The translations under genes were made by a program, and so were the position numbers. From an uncultured Lachnospiraceae bacterium (GTDB lineage: Bacteria; Bacillota; Clostridia; Lachnospirales; Lachnospiraceae), in assembly GCA_947626475.1 (NCBI GenBank), contig CANQSK010000015.1:1-34052 (forward strand): 34,052 nt of DNA. The letters run 5' to 3'. Positions 4,336 through 19,802 of this stretch are shown here, piece after piece (the first letter of the stretch is position 1; every line of letters begins with the position of its first letter). The notes under the pieces are model-generated. The model saw nothing but the letters and a program-made list of their open reading frames with translations, had not been told where the DNA came from and searched no databases.

Positions 4336-4411
4336 TAGTATCCTGCCGTTTACCAGAGGAAAAACGCATATAAATCTTACGATTTTCAGACAGGAATCTT
4401 ACCAAAAACTT

Positions 4412-4418
4412 TTCGACA
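4412..4418 (-). promoter_or_regulatory. Spo0A-box match (TGTCGAA)
   Basis: This is an exact match to the 0A-box core TGTCGAA on the minus strand, within an A/T-rich context, about 80 bp upstream of the extended -10 of the 106-aa gene. A 7-base motif occurs by chance a few times in a window this size, so it is only a candidate. Confidence 0.3.
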
Positions 4419-4539
4419 AATTACGAGAAATTTGCGTTTTTGGAAGTTCCAGAAGTAGTGTTTTTGAGAGAAAACAGAGCTACATTTTGTGGAATGAAGG
4501 GGATTGGACGGATACTCGTCCGGTCCCGTTGGCGGAATT

Positions 4540-4546
4540 TGTCGAA
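4540..4546 (+). promoter_or_regulatory. Spo0A-box match (TGTCGAA)
   Basis: This is an exact match on the plus strand, preceded by TT as in strong 0A boxes, and sits about 20 bp upstream of the candidate -35 of the 51-aa gene. With the match at 4412 it forms a divergently oriented pair. Confidence 0.35.
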
Positions 4547-4564
4547 TTGTGCGGTTAATTCCTC

Positions 4565-4593
4565 TTTTCAAATCCGGAAAAAGGGGCTATAGT
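4565..4593 (+). promoter_or_regulatory. Candidate sigma-A promoter for the 51-aa protein
   Basis: TTTTCA (4565-4570) and TATAGT (4588-4593) are separated by exactly 17 nt and lie just upstream of the ribosome site. The -35 box matches the consensus in only four of six positions. Confidence 0.4.
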
Positions 4594-4624
4594 GAAATTA
4601 CTCAAAAAAAGGGGGGAATTTCAC

Positions 4625-4780
4625 ATGAGCGAGTTGGAAAAAATTGTTGCTCTTGAAGAGGAGAATCGAAGACTGAAAGCGGATAATGATAAGTTGTTAG
4701 AGATTATGGCGCAGCTGCGTGTGACATTGAACCGCTTGATTTTTCGATATGTCTCCGGCAGACAAGAGAACGAGGCGTAA
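4625..4780 (+). CDS. Small coiled-coil protein, 51 aa, function unknown
   Basis: Residues 1-38 form a strongly heptad-like, charged helix (LEKIVALEEENRRLKADNDK and on), ending in a basic, aromatic segment (LIFRYVSGRQENEA). No known domain is recognised; a small dimerising cytosolic protein is plausible. The frame extends 33 nt further upstream, but an AGGGGGG ribosome site 8 nt before the ATG at 4625 marks this as the start. The segment RLKADNDKL...T resembles the C-terminal coil of the neighbouring 131-aa protein. The next gene is convergent, only 32 nt away. Confidence 0.65.
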   Translation: MSELEKIVALEEENRRLKADNDKLLEIMAQLRVTLNRLIFRYVSGRQENEA

Positions 4781-4812
4781 TTGAGCCGGGCATTCGTAGA
4801 ACGGAACGGGGG

Positions 4813-5208
4813 TCAGGACTTTCGCAGTTCGGCCAGTTCCCGTTCCAGTTCACGGGTGCGCTTCAGTTGGTCCCAAATGGTTTTATGCATCCAGTCGATA
4901 GTATGATTCAATTCCTGATTTTCCTGTTCCAGTCTGCTGCATTCCGCGGCCAGCCGGCCAATCAGTTCACGGTGGTTGTAAACTTTGTCAGGAGCACAGA
5001 TGCGCTCTACCAGCGTCGGCGCGGATTCCACGATCTTGTGAGTGATCAGACGGTCTCTGGCGTCGTAGTCCAAATCCATAAAATCCTGATAGCGCATGTC
5101 CATCAGATTCATTTTAGTCTGGCACTTGTGGCAGACAGCGTTCTTGGGCAGCTGAAAATAGGCGTAGCGGCCGCAAAGCGGGCAATAGTAAACAGATAGT
5201 TCTCTCAT
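4813..5208 (-). CDS. Zinc-ribbon and coiled-coil protein, 131 aa, function unknown
   Basis: The N-terminus has a four-cysteine zinc ribbon, YYCPLCGRY (Cys9 and Cys12) and VCHKCQ (Cys26 and Cys29), followed by a linker with MDLDYDARDRLITHKIV. The C-terminal 50 residues are a coiled coil (RLEQENQELN, RTRELERELAELRKS). There is no signal peptide or membrane segment, so it is cytosolic. The zinc ribbon may bind nucleic acid or protein; the function cannot be told from sequence. GGAGG lies 10 nt before the ATG. It has no obvious operon partner: the neighbour to the left is convergent, and the gene to the right, on the same strand, ends in a terminator before this one starts. Confidence 0.75.
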   Translation of the reverse strand: MRELSVYYCPLCGRYAYFQLPKNAVCHKCQTKMNLMDMRYQDFMDLDYDARDRLITHKIVESAPTLVERICAPDKVYNHRELIGRLAAECSRLEQENQELNHTIDWMHKTIWDQLKRTRELERELAELRKS

Positions 5209-5283
5209 AGCGTTAATACCTCCAAGTTAATTTATGTACCCATTAATTAAAACGCAAAATCCTCAAATTTATAACATAAATAT

Positions 5284-5321
5284 GAAAAAAACTGCCAAAA
5301 TATTCCTATTCTGGCAGTTTT
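5284..5321 (-). terminator. Rho-independent terminator of the 497-aa repeat-protein gene
   Basis: AAAACTGCCA (5288-5297) and TGGCAGTTTT (5312-5321) form a perfect 10-bp stem around a 14-nt loop, and on the minus strand the stem runs into a T-tract. A GC-rich, self-complementary stretch at 5348-5380 lies between the stop codon and this hairpin and may add structure. Confidence 0.8.
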
Positions 5322-5416
5322 GAACGGATGATGCAGTTTTTTGGCTGTGCCGGGCCGCTGACCGGCGGCTCCGGCCGCAGTTCTATGGCAGCTTAACTGG
5401 AGGAAGCAATGGAAAT

Positions 5417-6910
5417 TTACTGCTGTACGATACCATTGGTATCTACGGTCCAGATCGTGTCATTGGAATCTCTTACGTCGCGGTAGCCGGCTCCAAGCTC
5501 CGGGCGGGCGGCAGATTTGGAGGAATTCGTAGCCTTCTGGATGGTTCCGGAGGCATTGACCAGATAATTCTTTCCCTCAAAGACGACCGGATTGTAGCGC
5601 AGGTCCGCGTCTGCCTCCAGGCGCAGGCCATTCTGGTAAATGGTGTTGCTGCGGATACCGTGGAAGCCCTGTCCCTTCTGAGAACCTTCCGTCTGGAAGA
5701 ACCAGTTCTGGTTCATGCCGGACTCCTCGTCAAAGATGACCTGTCTGCCGGTCTTCATAACGCCGTTGGCGTCAAAGTAGTAGTTGGCTGTAGTTCCTCC
5801 CTCCAGAGTGACTGCCTGAAGCCCGGTCTGCATTTCACCCTTTGTATTGAAGGCGTAGCGGTCGGAACCGACGCTGAATACCTGGATTCCGGTTTCCGCG
5901 AAGTAAGGAGCGCCGCTCTTGAAGTAGAATCGGTAAAGCTCGTCCTCCGTGCTGAGACCGGGGATGCCGGTGATATTCATCCATCCTGCGGCCCGTTTTC
6001 CGGCTTCATCATAGTACTGATAGCCTGCGGCAGTGACCGGTTTGGCCGGGAGAGTGGTGTCGTCCGCAGTTTTGTCCTGTTCCGAATCAGCCTGATTGTC
6101 GGAAGACTCATCGGCAGCGGTTTCAGAGCCGGTTTCCGAGGCAGCCTCAGCGACAGATTCGGCGGCAGTCTCCTCAGCAGAAGTCTCTGCGGCTTCACTG
6201 TCTTCCGCTTTATCGGAAGAGGATTCTTCAGCCGCGGTCTGGGGCAGCTTGTACCAGCCGGTTACCATACGGCCATCCACGAAGGTATAGTAAGCGTCAT
6301 TGATCCGCTTGTCTACCTGGTTTTCAATGCGCTTGCCGTCGCTCCCGAAATAGGACCAGGCGATATCCTCATCCAGGGGGTCATCGCTGACATCCAGCTG
6401 TACCCAGCCTTTTTTCATGGCGCCGTCACCATTTTTCCCAAAATAATAGTTGGCTCCGTCGATGGACTGAAGTCCTGTCACCATGTGGCCGTCCGCGTCA
6501 AAATAGTAGGTTTTATTGTCAATGGACTTAAATTTGGAGGTCAGCATTTTGCCGTTGCTGCCGTAATAATACCAGTAAACTTCGGAATCATTTTCTTCGT
6601 CCCAGAAGTCTTCATTTACAACGGACACCCACTGGTCCGCCACCCGTTTGCCTTCTGTATTTACGTAGTATTCGTCAATCTGCGCGTCCAGCGTAATGTT
6701 GCCGTCTTCATTTAAATAGTACCAGTCGTTGTTATGTTTTTTCCAGGAGTCGGTCAGTGCATACCCGTCGGAGTCATAGTACCTTAAATTGCCGTCCTCC
6801 TCTGCCCAGCCGGCGCTCTGGGCCATGACTGGCGCCGCCATGAGCGGAACCATTGCGGTCATAACTGCCGCGGTGGAAACAACAGCCGTCCATTTGATTG
6901 ATTTTTTCAT
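5417..6910 (-). CDS. Secreted cell wall-binding repeat protein with Ser/Glu/Ala-rich linker, 497 aa
   Basis: A signal peptide (MKKSIKWTAVV core, cleavage probably after PVMA-QSA) is followed by about eight cell wall-binding repeats (GNLRYYDSDGYALTDSW, NDWYYLNEDGN, KTYYFDADGHMVTG, ANYYFGKNGDGAMKKGW). Residues ~230-285 are a low-complexity, acidic Ser/Glu/Ala/Thr linker, after which repeats resume (YQYYDEAGKRAAGW, RYAFNTKGEMQTG, NYYFDANGVMKTG). The C-terminal ~70 residues (FEGKNYLVNASGTIQKATN and on) diverge from the repeats. It thus looks like two repeat blocks joined by a flexible spacer. AAAGGAG lies upstream of the ATG. It is more distant from the pair at 1-3745 than those are from each other, but shares a promoter-proximal element with the 535-aa gene. 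No catalytic domain is seen; the role is probably structural at the surface. Confidence 0.85.
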   Translation of the reverse strand: MKKSIKWTAVVSTAAVMTAMVPLMAAPVMAQSAGWAEEDGNLRYYDSDGYALTDSWKKHNNDWYYLNEDGNITLDAQIDEYYVNTEGKRVADQWVSVVNEDFWDEENDSEVYWYYYGSNGKMLTSKFKSIDNKTYYFDADGHMVTGLQSIDGANYYFGKNGDGAMKKGWVQLDVSDDPLDEDIAWSYFGSDGKRIENQVDKRINDAYYTFVDGRMVTGWYKLPQTAAEESSSDKAEDSEAAETSAEETAAESVAEAASETGSETAADESSDNQADSEQDKTADDTTLPAKPVTAAGYQYYDEAGKRAAGWMNITGIPGLSTEDELYRFYFKSGAPYFAETGIQVFSVGSDRYAFNTKGEMQTGLQAVTLEGGTTANYYFDANGVMKTGRQVIFDEESGMNQNWFFQTEGSQKGQGFHGIRSNTIYQNGLRLEADADLRYNPVVFEGKNYLVNASGTIQKATNSSKSAARPELGAGYRDVRDSNDTIWTVDTNGIVQQ

Positions 6911-6972: not shown

Positions 6973-7091
6973 TACCATGGGGGCGGCCCGTGAAAAGTGA
7001 AGGTTCATGGCAAATGTGGAAGGAAAAGACTTTTAACTCCGGCGATTTTATGATATGATGAAACCAAATGCAGAGAGAAAGGACAGGCCGC

Positions 7092-8978
7092 ATGAGAATA
7101 AAAGTTTCAGACTATATCGCAAAACAGTTGGTTGAGCATGGAATCACCCAGGTCTTTACTGTGACCGGGGGAGGCGCCATGCATCTGAATGACGCCCTGG
7201 GCCATGAAAAAGGGCTGCACTGTCTGTATCAGCATCATGAACAGGCCTGTGCCATTGCGGCGGAGAGTTATGCCAGAATACACAATACGATCGCCGCTGT
7301 GTGCGTGACCACCGGACCCGGAGGCACCAACGCGATCACAGGCGTTGTAGGCGGATGGCTGGATTCCATTCCCATGCTGGTGCTGTCAGGGCAGGTGCGG
7401 TATGATACAACGGCCCGCTGGTCCGGCGTAGGGATCCGCGCCATGGGAGATCAGGAATTTGATATTACGAAGGCGATAGATTGTATGACCAAGTACAGCG
7501 AGATGGTGATTGATCCCGGAAGAATCCGGTATTGTCTGGAGAAGGCGATCTATCTTGCTTATTCCGGCCGTCCCGGTCCCGCGTGGCTGGATATCCCTCT
7601 GAATGTCCAGGGAGCTTATGTGGAGACGGATGATCTGGAGGGGTTTGACGCGGAGGCGTACGAGGCGGAAAACGGCGGGCAGGGGCTGCCTCCCAGGGTG
7701 ACAGAGGATACCGCCCGCAGGATTATTGAGAAGATACGCGGCGCCAGAAGGCCGGTGCTGAATGCGGGAAATGGTATCCGCATCGCGGGGGCCTATCCGG
7801 TGTTTCAGCGGGTGGTGAGGCTTCTGGGCATTCCGGTGGCTACCGGCTGGGACAGCGAGGACTGTATGTGTGATGACGACCCGCTGTATGTGGGGAGAGC
7901 CGGCAATATGGGCGACCGCCCCGGCAATTTCGCGGTTCAGAACAGCGATCTGGTCTTTTCGGTAGGAAGCCGGCTTAGTATCCGCCAGGTAGGCTTTAAT
8001 TACAAGACCTGGGCCAGAGCGGCTTATACCATCATCAATGATATTGATATGGAGGAACTGAAAAAGCCCAGCCTCCATGTGGACATGGCGGTCCATGCGG
8101 ACGCGAAGGACCTGCTTGAGACGTTGGAAAGAGTTCTTCTGAAGGAGCCGGCGCCGGTGTTTGACGGCGGGGAGGGCCTGCCGGGCATGAGCTGGCTGGA
8201 GACCTGCCGGATGTGGAAGGAGAAGTACCCGGTGGTTCAGCCTAAGCATATGGTTCAGGATGACAGCCGGGAGGCCAATGTCTACGCGCTGGTAAAGGAG
8301 CTGAGCAGCCGCCTGCCGGAGAATCAGATTACGGTGGTCGGCAACGGTTCCGCCTGCGTGGTGGGCGGTCATGCCTATGTCATCAAGAAAGGCCAGCGGT
8401 TTATTACGAACTCGGCTATTGCCTCCATGGGATACGACCTGCCGGCGGCCATAGGCGCCTGCATGGCGGCTTATGACCCGCGGTTTCGGCAGGCGGACGA
8501 GCCGGAGGACATTATCCTGCTGACAGGAGACGGCAGTATCCAGATGAATCTGCAGGAGCTGCAGACCATTATTCATCACAGGATGCCGATAAAGATATTT
8601 CTGATCAACAACGGCGGTTATCATTCTATCCGCCAGAGCCAGAAGAATTTCTTCGGAGAGCCCCTGGTGGGTATCGGAGTGGACAGCGGGGATCTGAGTT
8701 TTCCGGATATGGAAAAGCTGGCGTGGGCCTACGGTTATCCCTATGTGAAAGCGGTTCATAACAGCCAGCTGCCGGAGGCCATAGAGAAGACCCTGTCCAC
8801 AAAGGGGCCAGCCATCTGCGAGGTGTTCGTTACCATTGATCAGGTTTTTGAACCCAAGTCTTCCGGCAAACGGCTTCCGGACGGGACTATGGTGTCCCCG
8901 CCCCTGGAAGATCTGGCGCCCTTCCTTCCTGAGGAGGAAATGGACGCTATGATGATCATTCCCAGAATCCGGGAGTGA
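7092..8978 (+). CDS. Thiamine diphosphate-dependent enzyme, acetolactate synthase-like, 628 aa
   Basis: The three-domain layout of the acetolactate synthase/pyruvate decarboxylase superfamily is clear: an N-terminal pyrimidine-binding domain with the catalytic Glu50 in YQHHEQACAIAAE and the TTGPGGTNAITG loop, a central domain, and a C-terminal diphosphate-binding domain with GDGSIQMN from about residue 479 and the closing INNGGYHS. In polysaccharide loci such enzymes can transfer a two-carbon unit to a keto sugar (YerE in yersiniose synthesis is the precedent), while others make acetolactate-type products. Its place at the head of a sugar-modification/glycosyltransferase operon favours the sugar role, but the substrate is unknown. 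An in-frame start 24 nt upstream was rejected because AGAAAGGA precedes the ATG at 7092 at normal spacing. No acetolactate synthase small subunit or other ilv gene is nearby, which argues against branched-chain amino acid synthesis. Confidence 0.85.
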   Translation: MRIKVSDYIAKQLVEHGITQVFTVTGGGAMHLNDALGHEKGLHCLYQHHEQACAIAAESYARIHNTIAAVCVTTGPGGTNAITGVVGGWLDSIPMLVLSGQVRYDTTARWSGVGIRAMGDQEFDITKAIDCMTKYSEMVIDPGRIRYCLEKAIYLAYSGRPGPAWLDIPLNVQGAYVETDDLEGFDAEAYEAENGGQGLPPRVTEDTARRIIEKIRGARRPVLNAGNGIRIAGAYPVFQRVVRLLGIPVATGWDSEDCMCDDDPLYVGRAGNMGDRPGNFAVQNSDLVFSVGSRLSIRQVGFNYKTWARAAYTIINDIDMEELKKPSLHVDMAVHADAKDLLETLERVLLKEPAPVFDGGEGLPGMSWLETCRMWKEKYPVVQPKHMVQDDSREANVYALVKELSSRLPENQITVVGNGSACVVGGHAYVIKKGQRFITNSAIASMGYDLPAAIGACMAAYDPRFRQADEPEDIILLTGDGSIQMNLQELQTIIHHRMPIKIFLINNGGYHSIRQSQKNFFGEPLVGIGVDSGDLSFPDMEKLAWAYGYPYVKAVHNSQLPEAIEKTLSTKGPAICEVFVTIDQVFEPKSSGKRLPDGTMVSPPLEDLAPFLPEEEMDAMMIIPRIRE

Positions 8979-9022
8979 TGCAGTATCAGACCGTTGAAAA
9001 AGCAAAAGAAGGAGGAACGCCT

Positions 9023-11134
9023 ATGAACCTGGTCGTGACGGGAGCCACCAGTTTTCTGGGAACGGCGCTGGTCCGGAGGCTTTTGCAGGACGGACATCAG
9101 GTTTACGCGGTGGTGCGGCCCAATTCCGCCAACCTGCGGCGGTTTCGGCAGGAGATGCCGTCAAAGGTGCAGATCGTGGAGCTGGATATGGAGCAGTTTG
9201 ACCAGCTGCCCCGGCGAATTCCGGTTCCCTGCCAGGTGTTCTTTCACTTCGGATGGGATGGCTCCGGCAGCGCCAACCGAAAGAACGCCCGGATTCAGGA
9301 AAAGAACGCGGCGGATTCCATGAAGGCTCTGGAGGCGGCAAGAAAGCTGGGCTGCGAAAGATTTCTGTTCAGCGGCTCTCAGGCTGAGTATGGTCTTTGC
9401 GGAGAGCTTATGACCGAGGGGATGGAATGCCGTCCTGTATCCGAGTACGGCAAGGCCAAGCTGAAGTTTTACCGGCAGGCTGTCAGCCGGGTGGCGGAGT
9501 GGAACTGCCGGGATTCACAGGTCATGGAGTACATTCACACAAGAATATTCAGCGTCTACGGCCCTGGCGATCATCCCTGGTCGCTGGTGAATACCTGTCT
9601 TCAGACCTTTCAGGAGAATGGCCGGATGGAGCTGGGCGGCTGCGGACAGATGTGGAATTATCTGTATATAGACGATCTGGCGGAAGGTATTAAGGCTCTG
9701 GCCTTCTGTGACGGGCCTGTAGGCTTTACCGGCCTTAAGACAGGTTCTGCGGAGCCGGAGAATGGTATTTATAATCTGGCGGGCCCTGAGGCGGCTACCA
9801 GGCCTCTGAAGGATTATGTGGAGGATATCCGCCGGTACTGCGGCGGAAAAGGCGTCTGTGCCTACGGGCAGCTGCCGCCTAACGCGGAGGGCCGGGCCCA
9901 GCTGATGCCGGATACCGCGAAGATCAGGGCGGTGGTGGGATGGACGCCAAAGATTTCTTTTGAAGAGGGAATCAGACGTATGATTGAGACAGACAGAAGA
10001 ACTCATTGTATCGTATGCGGACATAAATTGCCGGAGAAGCCGCTTATGGAGCTGGACGGCATGCCGGCTTCAGCCCAGGATATCCCGGGAGCGGAGCAGG
10101 TGGAACAGGACAGCGGAATCCGGCTTCGGCTGTTCCAGTGCAGCCGTTGCGGGCTGGTGCAGTTTGACTGCAGGCCAGTCGGCTACTACCGGGATGTGAT
10201 CCGCTCCGGCGGATATTCCACCACTATGGCGGAACTGCGGACCAGGCAGTACCGGCATTTGATCGAGACTTATCATCTGGAGGGCAAGAAATTTCTGGAG
10301 GCCGGCTGCGGCGGCGGAGAGTTTCTGAGGATGCTTTCCGGATTCCCGGTGAAGGCCTACGGAATCGAACATCGGAAGGACCTGGCGGAGGCCGCCGCGA
10401 GAGAAGGACTCCAAGTCTTTCAGGGATTTCCCGAGAAGGAGGACACAGTTCTGGGGACGGAAGGTCCTTATGATGTTTTTCTGTCCTTTAATTTTCTTGA
10501 GCACCAGCCGGAGCCGGGAGTTATGCTTGACTGTATCCGGAACAACCTCAGTGAGGACGGCATGGGCCTGATCACTGTGCCCAGCCTGGAGTATATCCTT
10601 CAGTACGACGGTTATTATGAGCTGATTCGGGATCACATTGCCTATTATACTTTTGACACGCTCCGGTATCTGCTGGAGCATCATGGTTTTCAGGTGCTGG
10701 AGGAGGAGCTTGTCAACCGGGACACGCTGTCTGTGATCGTGAGAAAGAGGAAACCGGCGGACATATCCGGTCTTTTGGACAGTTATGGAAGGATCCGGCG
10801 GCAGATAGAGGAATTGACGGCGGACATAAAAAGCCGGAATAAAAAACTGGCCGTCTGGGGCGCCAGTCATCAGGGGTTTACGCTGGCGGCTACTACCTGC
10901 CTGGGAGAACGGGCAGCTTATATTATCGATTCCGCGCCCTTCAAACAGGGCCGTTTTGCGCCGGCGTCCCACCTGCCTATTGTGGCTCCGGAGCATTTCT
11001 TCCGGGAGCCTGCGGATGTGATCCTGATCGCGGCGCCCGGTTATACGGAAGAGATAGCCGGAGTGATCCGGCAGCGTTTCGGGGCGGATATTGAAATCAT
11101 GACGCTGCGCACGGACCGGGTGGAAAGGCTGTAA
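9023..11134 (+). CDS. Fused NAD-dependent sugar epimerase/dehydratase and sugar C-methyltransferase, 703 aa
   Basis: Residues 1-~320 are an extended short-chain dehydrogenase with the nucleotide motif TGATSFLG and catalytic Tyr142/Lys146 in SEYGKAK. From about residue 328 there is a zinc-binding segment (HCIVCGHKL ... FQCSRCGLVQFD), then a Rossmann methyltransferase (FLEAGCGGGEFLRM, ~423-436; FNFLEHQPEPG), then a C-terminal domain with LAVWGASHQGFTLAAT. That order (zinc-binding, SAM-binding, C-terminal NAD-like fold) is the signature of the TylC3/NovU-type sugar C-methyltransferases. The whole would reduce, epimerise or dehydrate an NDP-sugar and methylate a sugar carbon. An upstream in-frame GTG at 8975 was rejected; GGAGG at 9011-9015 directly precedes the ATG at 9023. 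It follows the ThDP gene by 44 nt. The joining of these two enzymes in one chain is unusual. Confidence 0.85.
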   Translation: MNLVVTGATSFLGTALVRRLLQDGHQVYAVVRPNSANLRRFRQEMPSKVQIVELDMEQFDQLPRRIPVPCQVFFHFGWDGSGSANRKNARIQEKNAADSMKALEAARKLGCERFLFSGSQAEYGLCGELMTEGMECRPVSEYGKAKLKFYRQAVSRVAEWNCRDSQVMEYIHTRIFSVYGPGDHPWSLVNTCLQTFQENGRMELGGCGQMWNYLYIDDLAEGIKALAFCDGPVGFTGLKTGSAEPENGIYNLAGPEAATRPLKDYVEDIRRYCGGKGVCAYGQLPPNAEGRAQLMPDTAKIRAVVGWTPKISFEEGIRRMIETDRRTHCIVCGHKLPEKPLMELDGMPASAQDIPGAEQVEQDSGIRLRLFQCSRCGLVQFDCRPVGYYRDVIRSGGYSTTMAELRTRQYRHLIETYHLEGKKFLEAGCGGGEFLRMLSGFPVKAYGIEHRKDLAEAAAREGLQVFQGFPEKEDTVLGTEGPYDVFLSFNFLEHQPEPGVMLDCIRNNLSEDGMGLITVPSLEYILQYDGYYELIRDHIAYYTFDTLRYLLEHHGFQVLEEELVNRDTLSVIVRKRKPADISGLLDSYGRIRRQIEELTADIKSRNKKLAVWGASHQGFTLAATTCLGERAAYIIDSAPFKQGRFAPASHLPIVAPEHFFREPADVILIAAPGYTEEIAGVIRQRFGADIEIMTLRTDRVERL

Positions 11135-11167
11135 GCGGCCCAAAATGACAGATAATTGGAGGAACCC

Positions 11168-12121
11168 ATGGTTGATTTGGCGGGAAAAAGGATAGTGATA
11201 ACGGGGGCCACAGGCTTTATCGGCAGGAATGTGGCCCGACGGCTGCTTGAGGAGGGCGCGGAGGTCTATGCCCTTGTGCGGCCTGAATCGCCGCAGAGAA
11301 ATTTACTGCCGGTTCATGGGGATTTTCATGTGCTGCCCGGAACACTGGATACGGCCGCGGACAGTCTGAGCGTTCTGGACCGGGCAGACGGCTTCCTTCA
11401 TTTCGCGTGGGGAGGGGTCAATCGTGAGGAGATCGATTCGCCCTCTGTGCAGGAGGCCAATGTGCTTGGCTCTCTGGAATGTCTGAAGGAAGCGCGCCGC
11501 CTGGGCTGCGGAATCTTCATGGATGCAGGCTCCAGAGTGGAGTATGGGATTACGCCGGACGGCATCATGGAAGAATCCATGGAGTGTCATCCGGTAAATG
11601 CCTATGGAAAGGCCAAGCTGGAGTTTTATCAGAAGGCGGCCAAGCTGTGCAGGGATTGGGGAATGACCTATTACCATCTGCGCTTTTTCAGCGTTTACGG
11701 TACGGGCGATCATCCCTGGTCGATCATTTCCACTTTGACAAGGGAGCTTCCGAAAGGAAACAGGGTTTCTCTCAGCGCCTGCCTTCATCGCTGGAATTTC
11801 ATGAATATAGCGGACGCGTCCAGAGCGGTGACAGAGCTTTACCGCCACAGCGGCGGCGACGGCAGGGTCTGCGCGGTGAATGTGGCCAGCGGCGACACCC
11901 GCCGGCTGAAGGAGTTTGTGGAGGAGATTCACCGCCTGTGCGGCGGAAAGGGAAGTCTGGAATACGGAACTTTTGTTCAGGCAAAAGAAGGCGCCCTGTC
12001 AATCTGCCCGGAGACAAAAGTGCTGCGGGAGCTGACAGACGGGACCTGGAAGGAGACCATATCATTTGCCCGGGGGATTCAGGAAATGCTTGGGGCAGGA
12101 GGCAGAGATGAAGAAAATTAG
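11168..12121 (+). CDS. NAD-dependent epimerase/dehydratase family protein, 317 aa
   Basis: This is an extended SDR with TGATGFIG at the N-terminus and the catalytic Tyr-x3-Lys in NAYGKAKLEFY, of normal length for NDP-sugar epimerases, dehydratases or reductases. It resembles the SDR half of the preceding fusion protein (both have FSVYGxGDHPWS and a RWNF/MWNY motif), so the two probably arose by tandem duplication and act on successive intermediates of the same sugar. The start at 11168 is preceded by TTGGAGG; a TTG 12 nt upstream was rejected because it overlaps that ribosome site. The last 14 nt overlap the next gene. The exact reaction cannot be assigned. Confidence 0.82.
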   Translation: MVDLAGKRIVITGATGFIGRNVARRLLEEGAEVYALVRPESPQRNLLPVHGDFHVLPGTLDTAADSLSVLDRADGFLHFAWGGVNREEIDSPSVQEANVLGSLECLKEARRLGCGIFMDAGSRVEYGITPDGIMEESMECHPVNAYGKAKLEFYQKAAKLCRDWGMTYYHLRFFSVYGTGDHPWSIISTLTRELPKGNRVSLSACLHRWNFMNIADASRAVTELYRHSGGDGRVCAVNVASGDTRRLKEFVEEIHRLCGGKGSLEYGTFVQAKEGALSICPETKVLRELTDGTWKETISFARGIQEMLGAGGRDEEN

Positions 12122-13145
12122 CGTATTGATACCGTGCTATAATGAGGAAGAGAATGTAGAACCGATCGCGCGGGCGATCATTGAGATACTGGAGAAGAAG
12201 CTTTCCCGGTATGATTATGAGCTGGTGTTTATTGACAACTGCTCTAAAGACAATACCCGCCCGATTCTCAGGCGGCTGTGCTCGGAGAATCCGAAGATCA
12301 AGGCGATTTTCAATGCCAGGAATTTCGGCCAGTTCAATTCTCCTTATTACGGCATGCTTCAGGTAACCGGTGACTGTGTGATCGAGATGGTGGCGGATTT
12401 TCAGGATCCGGTGGACCTGATACCAAAATATGTTCAGGCCTGGGAGGAAGGTTACAAAATCGTAATCGGAATCAAGACCAGCAGTAAAGAGAATCGGATC
12501 ATGTACTGGCTGCGAAGCTGTTATTATAAAATGATCCGCCGGCTGTCGGATGTAGAGCAGATCGAACATTTTACCGGCTCCGGACTGTATGACCGGGAAT
12601 TCATTGAGGTGCTCCGGCGGCTGGATGATCCGACTCCGTTTCTTCGGGGGATTGTGGCGGAGCTGGGGTTCCGCAGAAAAGAGATCCCCTATGAACAGCC
12701 GAAACGGAGAGCAGGGAAGACCAGCAATAATTTCTACAGCCTGTATGACGCGGCCATGCTGAGCGTCACCTCCTATACGAAGGTTGGCCTGCGTCTGGCC
12801 ACCTTTGTAGGCGCGATCAGCTGTGCGGTCAGCCTGCTTGTGGCATTTATCTACCTGATCATGAAGCTGGTCTGGTGGGACCGTTTTCCGGCAGGCATGG
12901 CGCCGATGCTGATCGGAATGCTGTTTTTGGGCTCTGTGCAGATTTTCTTTATCGGCATGATCGGGGAGTATGTGCTGTCCATCAATCAGAGGGTCATGAA
13001 GCGGCCGCTGGTGGTGGAGGAGGAGCGGATCAATTTCCCCGAAGAGAAGAAGGAGAAGAAGAAAAAGAAAAACAAGAAGGCGGGCGGAAACAAGAATCCA
13101 GACCGAAGCCGGCCGGGAGTGACAGACAATGAAATACAAGATTGA
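12108..13145 (+). CDS. Membrane-anchored GT2 glycosyltransferase (GtrB/CsbB/DPM1-like), 345 aa
   Basis: The N-terminal domain is a GT-A fold of family 2 (ISVLIPCYNEEENVEPIAR; VFIDNCSKDNTRPIL), and the C-terminal part has two membrane helices (VGAISCAVSLLVAFIYLIM and LIGMLFLGSVQIFFIGMIG). This layout is that of polyprenyl-phosphate glycosyltransferases such as GtrB, which load a sugar on undecaprenyl phosphate at the inner face of the membrane. The usual DxD-type motif is not clear; the matching region reads VADFQDPVD. The C-terminus is an unusual Lys/Glu-rich tail (KKEKKKKKNKKAGGNK). The start overlaps the preceding gene by 14 nt and is preceded by AGGAGG, giving tight coupling; the end overlaps the next gene by 17 nt. 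Confidence 0.85.
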   Translation: MKKISVLIPCYNEEENVEPIARAIIEILEKKLSRYDYELVFIDNCSKDNTRPILRRLCSENPKIKAIFNARNFGQFNSPYYGMLQVTGDCVIEMVADFQDPVDLIPKYVQAWEEGYKIVIGIKTSSKENRIMYWLRSCYYKMIRRLSDVEQIEHFTGSGLYDREFIEVLRRLDDPTPFLRGIVAELGFRRKEIPYEQPKRRAGKTSNNFYSLYDAAMLSVTSYTKVGLRLATFVGAISCAVSLLVAFIYLIMKLVWWDRFPAGMAPMLIGMLFLGSVQIFFIGMIGEYVLSINQRVMKRPLVVEEERINFPEEKKEKKKKKNKKAGGNKNPDRSRPGVTDNEIQD

Positions 13146-15339
13146 TGTAGTGCGGATCCGGGAAAATTCTATCCAGCTGAACGGCTGGGTGATCGGAAAG
13201 ACTCCGGAATCAAAGGCGTCCTTTAAGGTCCTTGACCAGGAGAAAAAGCCTGTGAAATTCCGCTGCGTGCCTACGCGGCGGGATGACGTCAGCCAGATCT
13301 ATTATAAAAAAACGTATGACCGGGATTTCGGTTTTGACATTCAGTTTCCCTATGAGAGAGGGAAAAGTTACTGGCTTCTGATCAAATGCGACGGCAGGAT
13401 CTCCAGGATCAAGTTCAACGAGGAACTGATCGCCAAACGTTCCAGCGTGGCCCACAAGCGTCTGGAGAAGATTCATGATCTGATGAACATGGAGACGGTT
13501 CATGTGGCGATGGAGTTCGGAAAGAAGCACGGCCTGAAAGCGCTGTTTCTCAAGTCCAAGCATAAGCTGCAGGGACTGGACAATGATTATGAGTACGCCG
13601 AGTGGTATGAGCTGACGAAGCCCTCTGAGGAGGAACTTAAGCGGCAGAGGAAAGAGCAGGTTCCCGGCGGGCTGAAGTTTTCCGTGGTTATGCCTCTGTA
13701 TAAGGCGCCGGCCGGTTATCTGCGGGTGATGCTGGATTCCATTCTCAGCCAGACCTATGAGAACTGGGAACTTTGCATTGCCGACGGAAGTCCGAGGGGT
13801 GAAGATTCTCAGGCCCTGGTGAAAGGTTATATGAAGAAAGATTCCAGGATCCGCTATAAGCTTCTGGAGACCAATGAGGGCATTTCGGGGAATACCAACG
13901 AGGCCATTGAGATGGCGTCCGGCGATTATATTGTGCTGGCCGATCAGGACGATGCAATGCCGGAGCATGCCCTGTACGAGTGTGCCAGGGCCGTGGCGGA
14001 GGACCCGGAGCGGGATGTGATCTATTCCGATGAGGATAAGATGGATATGGACGGAGGGGCGCTGTTTGACCCCCACTTCAAGCCGGATTTCAACGGAGAT
14101 CTGCTGACCAGCGTCAATTATATCTGCCACCAGTTTGTGGTGAAGCGCGAGCTTCTCAAGCAGGTGGGCGGGTTCCGCAAAGAGTTTGACGGCGCTCAGG
14201 ATTACGATCTGATCTTCCGATGCACGGAAGCGGCCGGGAAGATTTATCATATCCCCAAGGTGCTGTATCACTGGAGGTGCCATCAGAACTCCACGGCCAG
14301 CAATCCCCAGAGCAAGCTGTACGCCTTTGAGGCCGGTTCCCGGGCGATCATGGACCACTACCGCCGGGTGGGTATCCGGGCGGAAAAAGTGGAAAAGGGC
14401 ATCGACTACGGAATCTATCACACGGTTTTTGTCATTGAGGGACAGCCGCTGGTGTCGGTCATCATTCCCAACAAGGACCATAAGGAGGATCTGGATCTGT
14501 GCATCCGTTCGATTCTCACCAGATGCACCTACAAAAATCTGGAATTCGTGGTGGTGGAGAACAACAGCGTCAAGCCGGAGACCTTTGATTATTACGAGAA
14601 GATTCAGAAGGAATTTCCACAGGTCCGCGTAGTGAGATGGGAGAAGGAATTTAATTTTTCCGCCATCAACAATTTCGGCGTGGCCTGCGCGTCAGGAGAG
14701 TATCTTCTGTTCCTGAACAATGATATTGAACCGATCGCGGATAATTTTATTGAGGAAATGCTGGGCTTCTGCCAGCGTGAGGATGTGGGAGCCGTGGGAG
14801 CCCGCCTGCTCTATCAGGACGATACGATTCAGCATGCCGGGGTGGTGATCGGCTTCGGCGGCATCGCCGGCCACACGTTTATCGGGCTCCACCAGGCGGA
14901 GAACAGTTATTTCCACCGGGCCATGTGCGCCCAGGATTACAGCGCCGTGACCGCGGCCTGCATGATGAGCAAACGATCAGTGTTTGAGAAGGCCGGCGGG
15001 TTCAGCGAGGATCTGGCCGTAGCCTTCAATGACATTGACTACTGCATGAAGGTCCGCGCCCAGAACAAGCTGGTGGTCTACGCGCCCTACGCCCTTCTCT
15101 ACCATTATGAATCCAAGTCCAGAGGACTGGAGGATACGCCGGAGAAGGTGGCGAGATTCAACCGGGAGGTAGCCAGATTTGCCGTGAAGTGGCCGGATAT
15201 CCTGAGAGACGGGGATCCCTACTACAATCCCAATCTGACTCTGCGCAAATCCAATTTTGCCCTGCGCGACCTTCTGAAGGAAAAAATAGGGGAGCCTTAT
15301 CCCATGCCGGAGGAAATCCGGCGTCTGATGGAGGAATGA
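13129..15339 (+). CDS. Tandem-domain GT2 glycosyltransferase, 736 aa
   Basis: Residues 1-~110 form a separate N-terminal domain, rich in predicted beta strands (SIQLNGWVIGKTPES, DFGFDIQFPYERGKSYWLL). Two GT-A family 2 domains follow: the first from about residue 184 (FSVVMPLYKAPAGYLRVML; donor motif ADQDD; GGFRKEFDGAQDYDL) and the second from about residue 441 (VSVIIPNKDHKEDL; LNNDIEP; GGFSEDLAVAFNDIDYCM). Proteins with two GT2 domains often add two different residues or alternate linkages in wall polysaccharides such as rhamnans. There are no membrane helices, so it works on the cytoplasmic face on lipid-linked glycan. The start overlaps the previous gene by 17 nt and has GGGAG upstream. The next gene's ribosome site lies in its last codons. 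Confidence 0.87.
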   Translation: MKYKIDVVRIRENSIQLNGWVIGKTPESKASFKVLDQEKKPVKFRCVPTRRDDVSQIYYKKTYDRDFGFDIQFPYERGKSYWLLIKCDGRISRIKFNEELIAKRSSVAHKRLEKIHDLMNMETVHVAMEFGKKHGLKALFLKSKHKLQGLDNDYEYAEWYELTKPSEEELKRQRKEQVPGGLKFSVVMPLYKAPAGYLRVMLDSILSQTYENWELCIADGSPRGEDSQALVKGYMKKDSRIRYKLLETNEGISGNTNEAIEMASGDYIVLADQDDAMPEHALYECARAVAEDPERDVIYSDEDKMDMDGGALFDPHFKPDFNGDLLTSVNYICHQFVVKRELLKQVGGFRKEFDGAQDYDLIFRCTEAAGKIYHIPKVLYHWRCHQNSTASNPQSKLYAFEAGSRAIMDHYRRVGIRAEKVEKGIDYGIYHTVFVIEGQPLVSVIIPNKDHKEDLDLCIRSILTRCTYKNLEFVVVENNSVKPETFDYYEKIQKEFPQVRVVRWEKEFNFSAINNFGVACASGEYLLFLNNDIEPIADNFIEEMLGFCQREDVGAVGARLLYQDDTIQHAGVVIGFGGIAGHTFIGLHQAENSYFHRAMCAQDYSAVTAACMMSKRSVFEKAGGFSEDLAVAFNDIDYCMKVRAQNKLVVYAPYALLYHYESKSRGLEDTPEKVARFNREVARFAVKWPDILRDGDPYYNPNLTLRKSNFALRDLLKEKIGEPYPMPEEIRRLMEE

Positions 15340-15341
15340 TC

Positions 15342-16355
15342 ATGCCGGAGAAACAAGTGACGATCATCATACCAAACTACAATGGCCTTGCGTTTCTGGG
15401 CCCCTGCATGCTGGCACTGGAGCAGCAGCTGTGTCAGGATTTTAAGGTGCTGGTGGTGGACAATGGCTCCACCGACGGAAGCGTGGACTGGCTGAAAAAG
15501 CAGGGGATTCCGGCAATTTTCTTTGATGAGAACAAGGGATTTTCCGGCGCGGTCAACGCGGGGATCCGGGCGGCGGATACGCCCTATGTGCTGCTTCTGA
15601 ACAATGACACGGAGGCGGCGCCTCCTTTTGTCGGGGAGCTTCTTAAGGCGATCAGCCGTTCCGAGAAAATCTTTGCCGTCAGCAGCAAGATGGTTCAGAT
15701 GTATCACAAGAATCTGATGGACGACGCCGGGGATATGTACAGTCTTCTGGGCTGGGCCTACCAGCGGGGAGTGGGAAGAAGCAGCCGCGGCTACAACCGT
15801 CCCATGGAGGTGTTTTCCGCCTGCGCGGGAGCTTCGATCTACAGACGGAAGGTCTTCGATGAGATCGGGCTGTTTGACGAGATGCATTTCGCCTATCTGG
15901 AAGACATTGACGTGTGCTACCGGGCGAAAATCCACGGCTATCACAATCGGTATTGTCCTTCGGCCGTCGTCTACCATGTGGGAAGCGGCACCACCGGCTC
16001 CAAGTACAACGCGTTCAAGGTCCGCCTTGCCGCCCGCAACAATGTCTATCTGAATTATAAGAATATGCCCCTTCTCCAGCTGGCGTTCAACGGACCCTTT
16101 ATTTTGGCCGGGATCGCGGTCAAGTACGGATTTTTCAGGAAGCTTGGATTTGAGAAGGAGTACCGGTCAGGAATATGGGAGGGGCTGAAAACTCTTTACA
16201 AATGTAAAAAAGTGCCGTATAATTCTGCACATCTGGACAATTATCTGTCCATCCAGTGGGAGCTGACGGCGGGAACCGCCATTTATGTGTACGAATTTAC
16301 GATGAGGCAGCTAGGGAAAATGTTACCAATATTTAAGAATTTTTTAATACCATAA
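15342..16355 (+). CDS. GT2 glycosyltransferase, rhamnosyltransferase-like, 337 aa
   Basis: The protein has a single GT-A domain (VTIIIPNYNGLAFLGPCML; VDNGSTDGSVDWL; LLNNDTEAAP as donor motif) and the later FDEMHFAYLEDIDVCYRAKIHGY motif typical of WbbL/RfbF-type GT2 enzymes. The C-terminal ~80 residues (ARNNVYLNYKNM, FILAGIAVKYGFFRK) form an amphipathic or membrane-touching segment common in this group. GGAGG at 15330-15334 has ideal spacing to the ATG at 15342, whereas the in-frame ATG at 15336 is only 1 nt from it, so 15342 was chosen; it lies 2 nt after the previous stop. It is part of the polysaccharide operon; donor and acceptor sugars are not known. Confidence 0.87.
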   Translation: MPEKQVTIIIPNYNGLAFLGPCMLALEQQLCQDFKVLVVDNGSTDGSVDWLKKQGIPAIFFDENKGFSGAVNAGIRAADTPYVLLLNNDTEAAPPFVGELLKAISRSEKIFAVSSKMVQMYHKNLMDDAGDMYSLLGWAYQRGVGRSSRGYNRPMEVFSACAGASIYRRKVFDEIGLFDEMHFAYLEDIDVCYRAKIHGYHNRYCPSAVVYHVGSGTTGSKYNAFKVRLAARNNVYLNYKNMPLLQLAFNGPFILAGIAVKYGFFRKLGFEKEYRSGIWEGLKTLYKCKKVPYNSAHLDNYLSIQWELTAGTAIYVYEFTMRQLGKMLPIFKNFLIP

Positions 16356-16415
16356 GGCTTGATTTCATGTATAATGTATGGGACATCACACCACATTAAA
16401 TCAAGGTGAACTCTT

Positions 16416-17834
16416 ATGATAAAGAATAATCAGCCAATGCTGAACCGGCTGCATATCGTTTTGGATGTGCTGGTGATGGCTGTATCCTACGCGCTGGCCT
16501 GGGTATGCCTGTATGTAGGCAACCGGCTGTTTACGCCGGACAGAGGCCTGCTGCCGCCCCAGTATTATTTTGTGATGCTGGTCGGCATTGTCCCGCTGTA
16601 TCTGATCCTGTATACGGTGTTCCATCTGTATGAGCCGAAGCGGATACAGCAGAGAAGATATGAATTTGCCAATATTCTGAGGGCCAATCTGATTGGCCTT
16701 CTGATTATTACCATGGTGCTGTTTCTTCTGAATAAGAACCTGTATTACCAGGAATATTCCAGAAGAATGGTCTATTATTTCTTTGTCATCAACGTGATCC
16801 TGGAGACAGGGGAGCGCAACACGATACGGCTGGTCCTCCATACGTTCCGGGCAAAGGGATACAATCAAAAGCATGTTCTGCTGCTGGGCTACAGCCGGAC
16901 GGCGGAGGGGTTTATCGACCGCGTGCTGACCAACCCGGAGTGGGGATACCATATCTGGGGAATCCTGGACGACAACAAAGAGCTGGGCACCGAGTACCGG
17001 GGAGTCCGGGTGATCGGAAGGACCGGCGAGCTGGAATCCATCCTGGAGCTGAACACGCTGGATGAGATCGCCATCACCCTGGGGCTGGCAGAGTATGCCA
17101 AGCTGGAGACGGTGGTAGCGGCCTGCGAGAAGTCCGGCGTTCATACCAAGTTCATTCCGGATTATAACAATGTGCTGCCGACCAGGCCATACACGGAGGA
17201 TTTGCAGGGACTGCCGGTCATCAATATCCGTCATGTGCCGCTGAACCAGCCCTTTAACCGCGTGATCAAGAGAGCGGTGGATATTGTGGGGGCCCTGGTG
17301 GGCATTATTGTGTTCTCGCCTGTGATGTTTCTGACGGCTGTCATGATCAAGATTACGTCGCCGGGCCCGCTGATCTTCAAGCAGGAGAGGATCGGAATCC
17401 ACAACCGGCCTTTCCAGATGTATAAGTTCCGTTCCATGGAGGTGCAGGCGCCCTCTGAGGAAGCGAACAAGTGGACAACCCCTCATGACCCGCGGGTGAC
17501 GCCCTTCGGGCATTTTATAAGAAAATGCAGCATCGATGAGATCCCGCAGTTTTTTAATGTGCTGAAGGGGGACATGAGTCTCGTAGGCCCCAGGCCGGAG
17601 CGGCCGCTTTTTGTGGAGCGGTTTAAGGAAGAGATTCCCAGATATATGATCAAGCACCAGGTGCGTCCCGGCATGACCGGATGGGCTCAGATCAACGGAT
17701 ACAGGGGAGACACTTCTATCACCAAGAGAATTGAGCATGACCTGTATTACATTGAGAACTGGACGCTGGGATTTGATTTTCGGATTATGTTCCTGACATT
17801 TTTTAAGGGATTTATTAATAAAAACGCGTATTAA
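16416..17834 (+). CDS. Undecaprenyl-phosphate sugar phosphotransferase (WcaJ/CpsE-type), 472 aa
   Basis: This is the likely initiating enzyme of the locus: it would transfer a sugar-1-phosphate from a UDP-sugar to undecaprenyl phosphate. Four N-terminal membrane helices (first LHIVLDVLVMAVSYALAW, last MVYYFFVINVILE) are followed by a CoA-binding-like Rossmann domain (HVLLLGYSRTAEGFIDRVL) and then the catalytic bacterial sugar transferase domain from about residue 285 (RAVDIVGALVGIIVFSPV, MYKFRSM, SIDEIPQFFNVLKGDMSLVG, GPRPE). The length is normal for the TIGR03023-type polyprenyl glycosylphosphotransferases. The sugar, glucose or galactose or another, cannot be told. A 60-nt gap before it has a TATAAT at 16370-16375 but no -35 box, so it may have a minor promoter of its own. 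It is followed 21 nt later by the LCP gene. Confidence 0.9.
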   Translation: MIKNNQPMLNRLHIVLDVLVMAVSYALAWVCLYVGNRLFTPDRGLLPPQYYFVMLVGIVPLYLILYTVFHLYEPKRIQQRRYEFANILRANLIGLLIITMVLFLLNKNLYYQEYSRRMVYYFFVINVILETGERNTIRLVLHTFRAKGYNQKHVLLLGYSRTAEGFIDRVLTNPEWGYHIWGILDDNKELGTEYRGVRVIGRTGELESILELNTLDEIAITLGLAEYAKLETVVAACEKSGVHTKFIPDYNNVLPTRPYTEDLQGLPVINIRHVPLNQPFNRVIKRAVDIVGALVGIIVFSPVMFLTAVMIKITSPGPLIFKQERIGIHNRPFQMYKFRSMEVQAPSEEANKWTTPHDPRVTPFGHFIRKCSIDEIPQFFNVLKGDMSLVGPRPERPLFVERFKEEIPRYMIKHQVRPGMTGWAQINGYRGDTSITKRIEHDLYYIENWTLGFDFRIMFLTFFKGFINKNAY

Positions 17835-17855: not shown

Positions 17856-19802
17856 ATGAGTTTTGGATATGATGATGGGAAAAACCCGCCGGAGGACGGG
17901 GATTTTTGGGACGGAGAGGACTGGGAGACGGAAGAGCGCCCCAGCCGGAAGCCGGTAAGGAGAACGGAACAGCCCGGCTATGACGCCGCCGGCGGCAGAG
18001 CCGGGAGCAGGACCGGAGGCAGAGCGGGGACCAGGAGAACCGCCTTTCAGCAGGGGAAGCAGCGGAATCCCTATTCCCAGACGGGAACGACAGCGTCTCA
18101 CAGCAGCCGGTATGCCCAGCTGAAGGAGGAGCAGGCCAGGAAAAAGAAAAAGAGACGCCGGATCATTGCCATGATCGTGGCGGAATGTCTTGTACTTACG
18201 GCAATATTTTCCTATGCGTATGTCACCAGGCTGTGGAATCTGATGCCAAGACCTACCGTCAGAGAGGAGAATGTAACCAATCCCAATCTGGCGGTCGAGG
18301 ATATTCATAAGATGCAGGGCTACTGGATGGTAGCCATTTTTGGCATTGACGTGGGAACCGGCGCCTCCGGCGCCCGCGGCAACTCCTCGGATGTGAATAT
18401 TATCGCCTGCATCAATCAGGATACCGGGGAGATCAAGCTGGTGTCCCTGTACCGGGATACGTATCTGAAGGTTACGGACAAGGGAGAGTACCGCAAGTTC
18501 AATTACGCGTATTCCGCCGGCGGCCCCGAGATGGCTCTGAAGATGCTGAACGAGAACCTGGATCTGAATATTACGGAGTACATTACCTTCAACTGGAAGG
18601 CTGTGGCGGACGGCATCAATATTCTGGGCGGCGTGGACGTGGATATCACAAAGTCAGAGTTTAAATACATCAACAGCTTTATCACAGAGACGGTTAAGGA
18701 GACGGGAGTAGGCTCCTATCAGCTGAAGAGCGCGGGCATGAACCATCTGGACGGGATCCAGGCGGTGTCTTACGCCCGGCTGCGTCTGATGGACAACGAC
18801 TACAAGAGAACGGAGCGGCAGAGAAAGATCATTCAGCTGGCTTTTGATAAGGCGAAGCAGTCCAATTATTCTGTGCTGAACAACATACTGGTGGTCTGCC
18901 TGCCCCAGGTTATGACCAATCTGGAGTTTGCGGATCTGACCAATCTGGCCCTGGGTATCTCCAAGTACCATATCGGCGAGACGGTGGGATTCCCCTTCGA
19001 TAAGGGCGACGCCAACATGGGCTCCAAGGGCGCTTCTGTCATTCCTCTGAGCCTGGAGTCCAATGTCAGCCAGCTGCATCAGTTCCTGTTCGGAGACGAG
19101 GCTTATACGCCTACCAGCACCGTGCGGCAGATCAGTCAGAAGATTGCCTCGGATACAGGACTTTACGCCAACAAGTCCTCTTCCTCCGGCGGCTCTTCCG
19201 GCGGACAGTCATCGGAAGGAAAGAAGGAGACAAAGGACTCTGAGAAGGAGACGGAGGAGAACGAGGACGGGCCGGACAGCAGTTCGGCGGATCGGACAGT
19301 CCCTGTCTATCCCGGAATATTTGAGACGGATGAGGACGGCAATCTTATCGATCCGCCGGAGCCGGATGAACCGTTTTTGCCGGGCGGAACCACGAGGCCG
19401 GGTCCCACCGAGAGTTCTCCCGCTCCGTCGCCGGGCATGAATGAGACCCAGCCCGGGTACGTTCCTTACGGCCCCGGGTATGAGACCCAGCCGCAGGACG
19501 GAAACGAGCCCAGGTGGCCGGGAGATACAGGCAGCGAAAACGGCGGTCCGGGAGACGCAGGCACACCCTCCGGCGGCACAGGCGGTCCCGGAGACATGTC
19601 CGTCGGTCCGGGCAGTACCGGTACGGGCCCCGGACTTTCGGAAGGGAATACAGGCGGTCCGGGAGCGGCGGAGAACGGTCCGGGTGCCGGAACGGGTGAC
19701 AGCGGTTCTCTCCAGGGAGGTCCCGGCGTATCGGCGGGCCCGGGAGACAGCAGCGGAGTGATTACCGGTCCGGGTGATGTCGCGCCAGGGCCCGGATATT
19801 AA
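17856..19802 (+). CDS. LytR-CpsA-Psr (LCP) family glycopolymer transferase with long Gly/Pro-rich tail, 648 aa
   Basis: Residues 1-100 are a charged, disordered cytoplasmic part (many Arg, Gly and Lys), followed by one membrane helix (~100-125, IIAMIVAECLVLTAIFSYAY) and the extracellular LCP domain (IFGIDVGTGASGARGNSSDV, SLYRDTYLKV, INILGGVDVDI, GIQAVSYARLRLMDNDYKRTERQR). The conserved Arg/Asp residues that bind polyprenyl pyrophosphate are present. LCP enzymes move lipid-linked glycans onto peptidoglycan, which fits the initiating transferase just upstream. From about residue 435 the protein continues for over 200 residues as a Ser/Glu-, Pro- and then Gly-Pro-rich tail with many GGPG units, ending in PGPGY. 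This is much longer than in most LCP proteins and may be a wall-spanning segment. GAGGACGG precedes the ATG. Confidence 0.9.
   Translation: MSFGYDDGKNPPEDGDFWDGEDWETEERPSRKPVRRTEQPGYDAAGGRAGSRTGGRAGTRRTAFQQGKQRNPYSQTGTTASHSSRYAQLKEEQARKKKKRRRIIAMIVAECLVLTAIFSYAYVTRLWNLMPRPTVREENVTNPNLAVEDIHKMQGYWMVAIFGIDVGTGASGARGNSSDVNIIACINQDTGEIKLVSLYRDTYLKVTDKGEYRKFNYAYSAGGPEMALKMLNENLDLNITEYITFNWKAVADGINILGGVDVDITKSEFKYINSFITETVKETGVGSYQLKSAGMNHLDGIQAVSYARLRLMDNDYKRTERQRKIIQLAFDKAKQSNYSVLNNILVVCLPQVMTNLEFADLTNLALGISKYHIGETVGFPFDKGDANMGSKGASVIPLSLESNVSQLHQFLFGDEAYTPTSTVRQISQKIASDTGLYANKSSSSGGSSGGQSSEGKKETKDSEKETEENEDGPDSSSADRTVPVYPGIFETDEDGNLIDPPEPDEPFLPGGTTRPGPTESSPAPSPGMNETQPGYVPYGPGYETQPQDGNEPRWPGDTGSENGGPGDAGTPSGGTGGPGDMSVGPGSTGTGPGLSEGNTGGPGAAENGPGAGTGDSGSLQGGPGVSAGPGDSSGVITGPGDVAPGPGY

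Follow-up and report, generated by a model that had tools for sequence, protein, structure and literature searches.

Gene content of the locus and its relatives

The window analyzed here is the whole 34,052-nucleotide stretch of contig CANQSK010000015.1 (C15) from GCA_947626475.1, the assembly of an uncultured Lachnospiraceae bacterium whose genome comprises 3.1 Mb in 207 contigs. Its forward strand carries a group of genes that appears to encode a branched-sugar pathway. The first gene (7092..8978) encodes a thiamine diphosphate (ThDP) enzyme of 628 amino acids with the TPP_enzyme N, M and C domains of Pfam, which groups with the YerE-like carboligase JanthE. It is followed by an open reading frame (ORF) of 703 amino acids (9023..11134) that joins a short-chain dehydrogenase/reductase (SDR) to a C-methyltransferase (MT). 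The N-terminal half, SDR1 (9023..9988), has an Epimerase domain and is the proposed ketoreductase of the branch, and the C-terminal half (9995..11134) matches MtmC, TcaB9 and KijD1 in the PDB. A second reductase of 317 amino acids, SDR2 (11168..12121), also has the Epimerase domain of Pfam. The original prediction had placed a ThDP enzyme, an SDR/C-methyltransferase fusion and a second SDR at 7092-12121, and all three ORFs were recovered there with matching domains.

The next gene on the same strand (12108..13145) encodes a GtrB/ArnC-like family 2 glycosyltransferase (GT2), the putative undecaprenyl-phosphate branched-sugar synthase, identified by its PDB matches and by a tree that splits by reductase type. 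It is followed at 13129..17834 by a double GT2 (13129-15339), another GT2 (15336-16355) and a WcaJ-type initiating transferase (16416-17834; 497 bits, above the NCBIfam cut-off), assigned by Pfam and NCBIfam, and then by an LCP-family glycopolymer ligase (17856..19802; LytR_cpsA_psr, above cut-off). Because of these downstream genes, we classify the region as a wall or capsule glycan locus.

Among at least 596 pattern matches in GTDB genome contigs, at least 562 were relatives of the ThDP enzyme. The best-scoring 80, which are 68-93% identical to it, were kept, so this sample favors close kin. Gene neighborhoods were assigned by BLAST with proteins of the window and of contig C17 from the same genome. 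In 75 of the 80 loci, a GtrB-like GT2 lies downstream of the ThDP gene and the interval between them includes an SDR gene; the other five have no GT2 in reach (L010, L015, L018, L030 and L076) and were left out of the 75-locus counts. The interval between the two genes holds SDR1, MT and SDR2 in 30 loci. It holds SDR1, MT and a secondary-alcohol dehydrogenase in 28 loci and SDR1 and MT alone in one (L014); in 12 loci SDR1 is the only gene of this set, and in four a different SDR stands there by itself. Examples are L051 for the SDR2 class, L047 of Lacrimispora xylanisolvens for the dehydrogenase class and L019 for loci without MT. Among five genomes searched as a whole, G097 and G127 had no MT. 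The downstream transferases are alike in loci with and without the methylation module. When the ThDP protein was compared with plasmid records, 1559 matches were obtained, none of them above 60% identity; the annotated names among the matches listed were all acetolactate synthases, the others being unannotated or hypothetical.

Two side observations concern individual relatives. The closest ThDP relative (93%; L010 10001-11884) occurs without the cassette, and its DNA is similar to the window only at 7011-8969. In two dehydrogenase-class loci, ORFs that look by eye like acetyltransferases lie between SDR1 and MT (L037 7332-8342; L039 3265-3960 and 4451-5539).

A YerE-like enzyme and its probable CDP-sugar precursor

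The best PDB sequence match of the ThDP enzyme is JanthE (8rph, 385 bits). The next is 5ahk (206 bits), which we take to be a Pseudomonas YerE, though its entry title reads acetohydroxy acid synthase, and a plant acetohydroxy acid synthase (AHAS) scores 195 bits. In a 37-row tree that included 15 of the 80 loci alongside 15 of 16 fetched stretches, and was built without YpYerE, the enzyme formed a clade with JanthE at a support of 100/100, apart from the genome's own AHAS and from E. coli IlvI, IlvB and Gcl, with JanthE and Gcl on long branches. A placement within true acetolactate synthases had been named as a refuting result; the tree puts the enzyme outside the AHAS rows. The structural comparison agrees with it: the first six PDB matches of a structure model of moderate quality (pLDDT 72.1, pTM 0.78) are all JanthE chains. 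Residues E50, G479-D480-G481 and N506-N507 are invariant in 15 sequences of relatives. The clade and the sequence and structural matches support the assignment of the ThDP enzyme as a YerE-like carboligase.

An ordinary acetolactate synthase standing by chance beside sugar genes would be a highly improbable alternative. The acetolactate synthase large-subunit model does top the NCBIfam scores of the enzyme, but its 300 bits lie far under the cut-off of 538. The genome encodes a separate AHAS on contig C71, no small-subunit gene follows the ThDP gene among the ORFs and domains of the window, and the 37-row tree excludes this identity, which was rejected on these grounds. The suggestion that the ThDP product could be an acyl-like substituent gained no support, no direct test of that alternative having been made.

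Contig C17 carries RfbF (402 bits), RfbG (432 bits) and RfbH (710 bits), each above its curated cut-off. This RfbH has the RfbH-type His and Cys pattern, which we take to be the mark of a 3-dehydrase. By their sequences, the three proteins are members of the families that make CDP-4-keto-3,6-dideoxyglucose. This product of the RfbF/RfbG/RfbH route is described as the YerE acceptor in the available text of PMC12247030. The original prediction had found no nucleotidyltransferase or 4,6-dehydratase and had concluded that a precursor must come from elsewhere. The absence holds for the window and not for the genome, where RfbF and RfbG lie on C17, and supply from outside the window is supported by all three genes; the idea of an absent precursor was rejected.

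The YerE-like enzyme and RfbH tend to occur together. We surveyed 150 genomes taken as Lachnospiraceae, as three of them (G036, G102 and G127) coincide by coordinate with the named loci L025, L051 and L019. With a line of 320 bits, chosen after seeing a score gap from 322.9 to 254.6, 50 of these genomes have a YerE-like enzyme. RfbH is above cut-off in 48 of the 50, versus 5 of the 100 genomes without the enzyme (Fisher 6.7e-31, kinship ignored; the genome lists behind these counts and the distances below were compiled by hand). In the two carriers without RfbH, the fetched stretches show RfbF near the ThDP gene in both and RfbG in one. In two of the five RfbH genomes without a YerE-like enzyme, a more distant ThDP gene lies 21-24 bases from RfbH. 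Across the 48 genomes with both, the ThDP gene is at most 12 kb from RfbH in 22, at most 45 kb in 6, farther in 5 and on a different contig in 15. Of the 73 loci with sufficient DNA upstream of the ThDP gene, four (L081, L083, L084 and L087) have RfbH as its direct upstream neighbor. For instance, in L083 the order RfbF-G-H-ThDP-SDR1-MT-SDR2-GT2-PMT_2 is found in a single run, followed by a tRNA-synthetase gene. This whole set in one run and the co-occurrence (48/50 versus 5/100) support the CDP-sugar reading. In a phylum-wide sample, strong ThDP matches (E up to 1e-90) occurred in three of four genomes of the same family, our own included, and in 6 of 295 others.

Further sugar genes were seen in this survey. 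Upstream of RfbFGH on C17, a HddC-, HddA-, GmhB- and GmhA-like set (L009, G000:C17:18000-32586, positions 2834-5882) resembles the genes for GDP-D-glycero-D-manno-heptose; the GmhB-like match alone is above its curated cut-off. Another genome carries three YerE-like genes and two for RfbH in a stretch of about 41 kb (G087:C1:1326000-1369000).

Methyltransferase, reductases and the proposed pathway

A single ORF encodes SDR1 and MT both in the window and in seven of the 80 loci. Elsewhere the MT loci carry two genes, except for L040, whose MT is attached to SDR2 and not to SDR1 (13157-15400). An assembly error was rejected as the source of the fusion, given the like single ORF in seven other loci. 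The fusion state changes twice on the ThDP and MT trees and three times on the SDR1 tree, one of these changes being due to L034. The structure model of the fusion has a pLDDT of 86.1 and a pTM of 0.58, so the relative placing of the two halves is unsure.

The C-methyltransferase identity of the second half is upheld by its nearest PDB matches, which are the sugar 3-C-methyltransferases MtmC (4rv9, 70 bits), TcaB9 and KijD1, and by its S-adenosylmethionine (SAM) and C-terminal domains. In Pfam, PF13489 and PF08484 are above cut-off and the Zn-binding PF08421 is below it. Four Zn-type Cys and a catalytic-type His are kept in 60 of 60 MT rows.

An Arg after beta-2 and a complete Ser-Tyr-Lys are present in all 73 rows of SDR1 and all 32 rows of SDR2. 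NADPH reductases tend to share these features, and both enzymes look like members of this group, SDR1 being of the extended SDR type. A GalE-type NAD epimerase was rejected as an identity of SDR1 because Arg, not Asp, follows beta-2 in 73/73 rows, a rejection that falls short of proof, as there are epimerases that use NADP.

A plasmid search with SDR1 of L019 as the query matched 213 records, of which we viewed two, picked by score. A Methylovirgula plasmid has the order RfbF-RfbG-SDR-RfbH-transketolase pair, with a GT2 and a GtrA nearby, and this GT2 is 39.7% identical to the window GT2 over 312 amino acids. A Paenibacillus plasmid has RfbF and RfbG, a C-methyltransferase, an SDR fused to a transketolase N half (L113 8947-10854) and a transketolase C half, with no RfbH annotated within the 19 kb shown; this cluster is a different ThDP route, perhaps one to a branched sugar. 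The plasmid SDRs are 29-30% identical to SDR1 of the window, a likeness at family level. Since a different ThDP enzyme here pairs with the same SDR family, these clusters support the view that SDR1 reduces a branch ketone made by a ThDP enzyme.

A second reductase accompanies the methyltransferase. In 58 of the 59 MT loci, exactly one of SDR2 (30 loci) or the unrelated secondary-alcohol dehydrogenase (28 loci) is present, and neither occurs in the 16 loci without MT. Adjusted for kinship, this link comprises 8 independent pairs, of which 7 agree, none is opposed and 1 shows no difference (p 0.016). Compared with 3fpc, a yardstick that we take to be possibly a T. brockii chimera, the dehydrogenase is 45-50% identical (156, 168 and 175 of 349 positions in three rows). 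Its Zn ligands are kept in 28 of 28 rows, W110 is replaced by His in 27 rows and Asn in one, I49 by Ser in 28 and C295 by Ala in 27. As W110 presumably limits the pocket, we read the dehydrogenase pocket as opened for a large substrate.

The type of second reductase is tracked by the GtrB-like transferase. Residues 3-303 of the window GT2 align with 27-325 of GtrB sll0501, the C-terminal membrane part included (165 bits; ArnC, 118 bits). On fast or quick trees of 58 of the 59 MT loci (L038 dropped), the SDR2/dehydrogenase label needs a single change on the GtrB-like tree, versus 6 on the ThDP, 5 on the SDR1 and 5 on the MT tree. On the 52 rows holding all compared genes, it needs 6 changes on the double GT2 tree and 5 on the WcaJ tree; shuffled labels have means of 17.3-17.8. 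A grouping of the SDR2 rows was rejected on both immediate flanks under a plain LG+G model (approximately unbiased (AU) test, MT p 6.6e-5; double GT2 p 5.5e-36). All of these trees, like those behind the kinship-adjusted pairs and the three-class count given below, are of a fast or quick kind. The simplest reading is that the GtrB-like transferase takes the product of the second reductase, in which case the changes would be made on one sugar.

Hitch-hiking of both genes on a single exchanged DNA block, without a common substrate, is a somewhat unlikely explanation of this link. The reductase and transferase genes are adjacent; a single recombining block would produce this pattern as well, and loci without MT lie near both transferase types. 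However, MT and the double GT2 are equally close and still reject the grouping, and the flanking trees need 5-6 changes, so the exchange would have been repeated with like borders.

Taken together, the locus probably makes a CDP-linked, yersiniose-type branched 3,6-dideoxyhexose that is also C-methylated and is passed to a cell-wall glycopolymer. The predicted pathway, which combines a YerE-like carboligase with C-methylation on a keto sugar, is supported by the JanthE grouping and by RfbF, RfbG and RfbH on C17. The ThDP enzyme would decarboxylate pyruvate, or a close 2-oxo acid, and add the acyl unit as a C2 branch to the C4 ketone, and SDR1 would reduce the ketone of the branch. MT would methylate the same sugar at a position adjacent to a ketone, either on the branch or on ring C3 before branching. 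The ketone left by methylation would be reduced by SDR2 or, in relatives, by the secondary-alcohol dehydrogenase. The GtrB-like enzyme would then transfer the completed sugar from CDP onto undecaprenyl phosphate, and the linked sugar would be used outside the membrane on the WcaJ-initiated, LCP-anchored glycan. The only GtrA gene found in the genome is elsewhere, on contig C94. The family chemistry of the dehydrogenase favors a methyl that extends the branch, and the Paenibacillus cluster, which has a single SDR, favors one on ring C3.

The constant presence of two reductases would favor a third arrangement, in which two sugars arise from one pool of CDP-4-keto sugar. The ThDP enzyme and SDR1 would lead to a yersiniose-type sugar, and MT and the second reductase to a C-methyl sugar, with methylation followed by ketoreduction. 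We regard this arrangement as unlikely. In its favor, the second reductase accompanies MT in 58/59 loci with SDR1 kept in all, a pair of reductases alongside a single branch ketone is consistent with two sugars, and module loss is common (12 loci with SDR1 alone; genomes G097 and G127 without MT). On the other hand, the GtrB-like transferase tracks the reductase type yet is retained in each of the 16 loci lacking MT, a pattern that fits a single sugar whose modifications are optional. The downstream transferases are also the same with and without the module, and both SDR1-MT and MT-SDR2 fusions exist.

Several observations weigh against the proposed pathway to a single, branched and C-methylated sugar. 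RfbF, RfbG and RfbH sit on a different contig from the ThDP gene in our own genome. Of the five JanthE residues listed as studied by mutation in the available text of PMC12188165 (V121, Y268, P293, Y297 and K567), the ThDP enzyme keeps only K567, so its substrate choice may differ from that of JanthE; these residues are not known to be defining for YerE-like enzymes. In the MtmC active-site motif Tyr-x-Glu-His, MT has Ile (51 rows) or Leu (9 rows) for Tyr and Asp for Glu in 60/60. L014 has MT without a second reductase. The chief difficulty is that SDR1 persists in every one of the 58 loci with both, which is unexplained if the methyl is on the branch. Once the 16 loci without MT are included, three classes require 10 changes on the GtrB-like tree; the loci without MT are placed close to both types, so a methylated sugar is not strictly required by the transferase.

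The glycan itself may have a further feature. Two choline-binding-repeat proteins are encoded on the reverse strand of the window at 2138-3745 and 5417..6910 (the latter with Choline_bind_3 at 79 bits), divergent from the ThDP gene, and an ORF similar to a choline-binding-repeat one lies divergently at most 4 kb away in 60 of the 73 relatives whose upstream DNA is long enough. On C17, a LicD gene follows RfbH (L009 13258-14097). These genes hint at a glycan that carries phosphocholine and anchors the choline-binding-repeat proteins.

Comparison with known systems

YerE-like enzymes, which are best known from Gram-negative bacteria, C-methyltransferases and GtrB are known kinds of proteins. As far as seen, the new elements are the family-wide setting in Gram-positive bacteria, the methylation-reduction module, the interchange of unrelated reductases and the matched transferase. 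The available text of PMC12247030 states that Krug et al. 2024 found more than 200 YerE-like enzymes in silico, and part of the distribution described here may already be counted in that survey. The available text of PMC4753412 describes the single-protein YerE route for Gram-negative lipopolysaccharide, in contrast to Gram-positive antibiotic producers. In the open-licence literature, we found no paper joining Lachnospiraceae and dideoxyhexose and none combining Lachnospiraceae with capsular polysaccharide, glycosyltransferase and CDP-glucose. The matches listed for yersiniose included no title about Lachnospiraceae.

More tentatively, about a third of the sampled Lachnospiraceae genera might make an unreported sugar conserved in the wall glycan, a 3,6-dideoxyhexose with a ThDP-installed C4 branch and, in most close relatives, a C-methyl group. 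Its last reduction, by SDR2 or by the re-shaped secondary-alcohol dehydrogenase, would probably yield different stereo-forms, and the undecaprenyl-phosphate transferase would be exchanged with the reductase to match, which would amount to a modular surface code of gut Firmicutes. If true, a family-wide YerE-like route in gut Lachnospiraceae changes where branched sugars are expected, predicts a residue in commensal wall glycans that routine sugar analysis may miss and supplies many new ketone-accepting ThDP enzymes. It also makes testable which reductase yields which branch form and whether the transferase reads that form.

The closest known system is the yersiniose A pathway of Gram-negative O-antigens, described in the available texts of PMC12247030 and PMC12188165 as RfbF/G/H, YerE and a ketoreductase, with JanthE and ErwE as YerE-like enzymes. 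The genome analyzed here shares with it the CDP-4-keto-3,6-dideoxyglucose gene set, a YerE-like ThDP enzyme and an adjoining reductase. It differs in its Gram-positive host, the wall-glycan genes, the added C-methyltransferase and second reductase, and the SDR-MT fusion, and the added methyl would make a sugar different from yersiniose. The ThDP enzyme has the canonical GDG, whereas JanthE has CDG.

The other components show similar mixtures of likeness and difference. MT shares the Zn-Cys, SAM and C-terminal domains and the catalytic-type His of MtmC, TcaB9 and KijD1; however, it is identical to MtmC, described as a ketoreductase/methyltransferase in the available text of PMC5103430, at only 81 of 383 aligned positions and is fused to an SDR. 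The enzyme in the SDR2 slot of relatives resembles the NADP secondary-alcohol dehydrogenases of the T. brockii/C. beijerinckii type with its Zn ligands kept, but is altered at W110, I49 and C295. The Methylovirgula and Paenibacillus plasmid clusters have RfbF-RfbG and the same SDR family in common with our system, and the Paenibacillus cluster also a C-methyltransferase; in contrast, both use a transketolase-type ThDP enzyme, and in Paenibacillus the SDR is fused to a transketolase half. Finally, the window GT2 matches the GtrB/ArnC polyprenyl-phosphate sugar synthases over its full length, and a PMT_2 protein adjoins the GT2 in L083, whereas the putative donor of the window GT2 would be a CDP-linked branched sugar.

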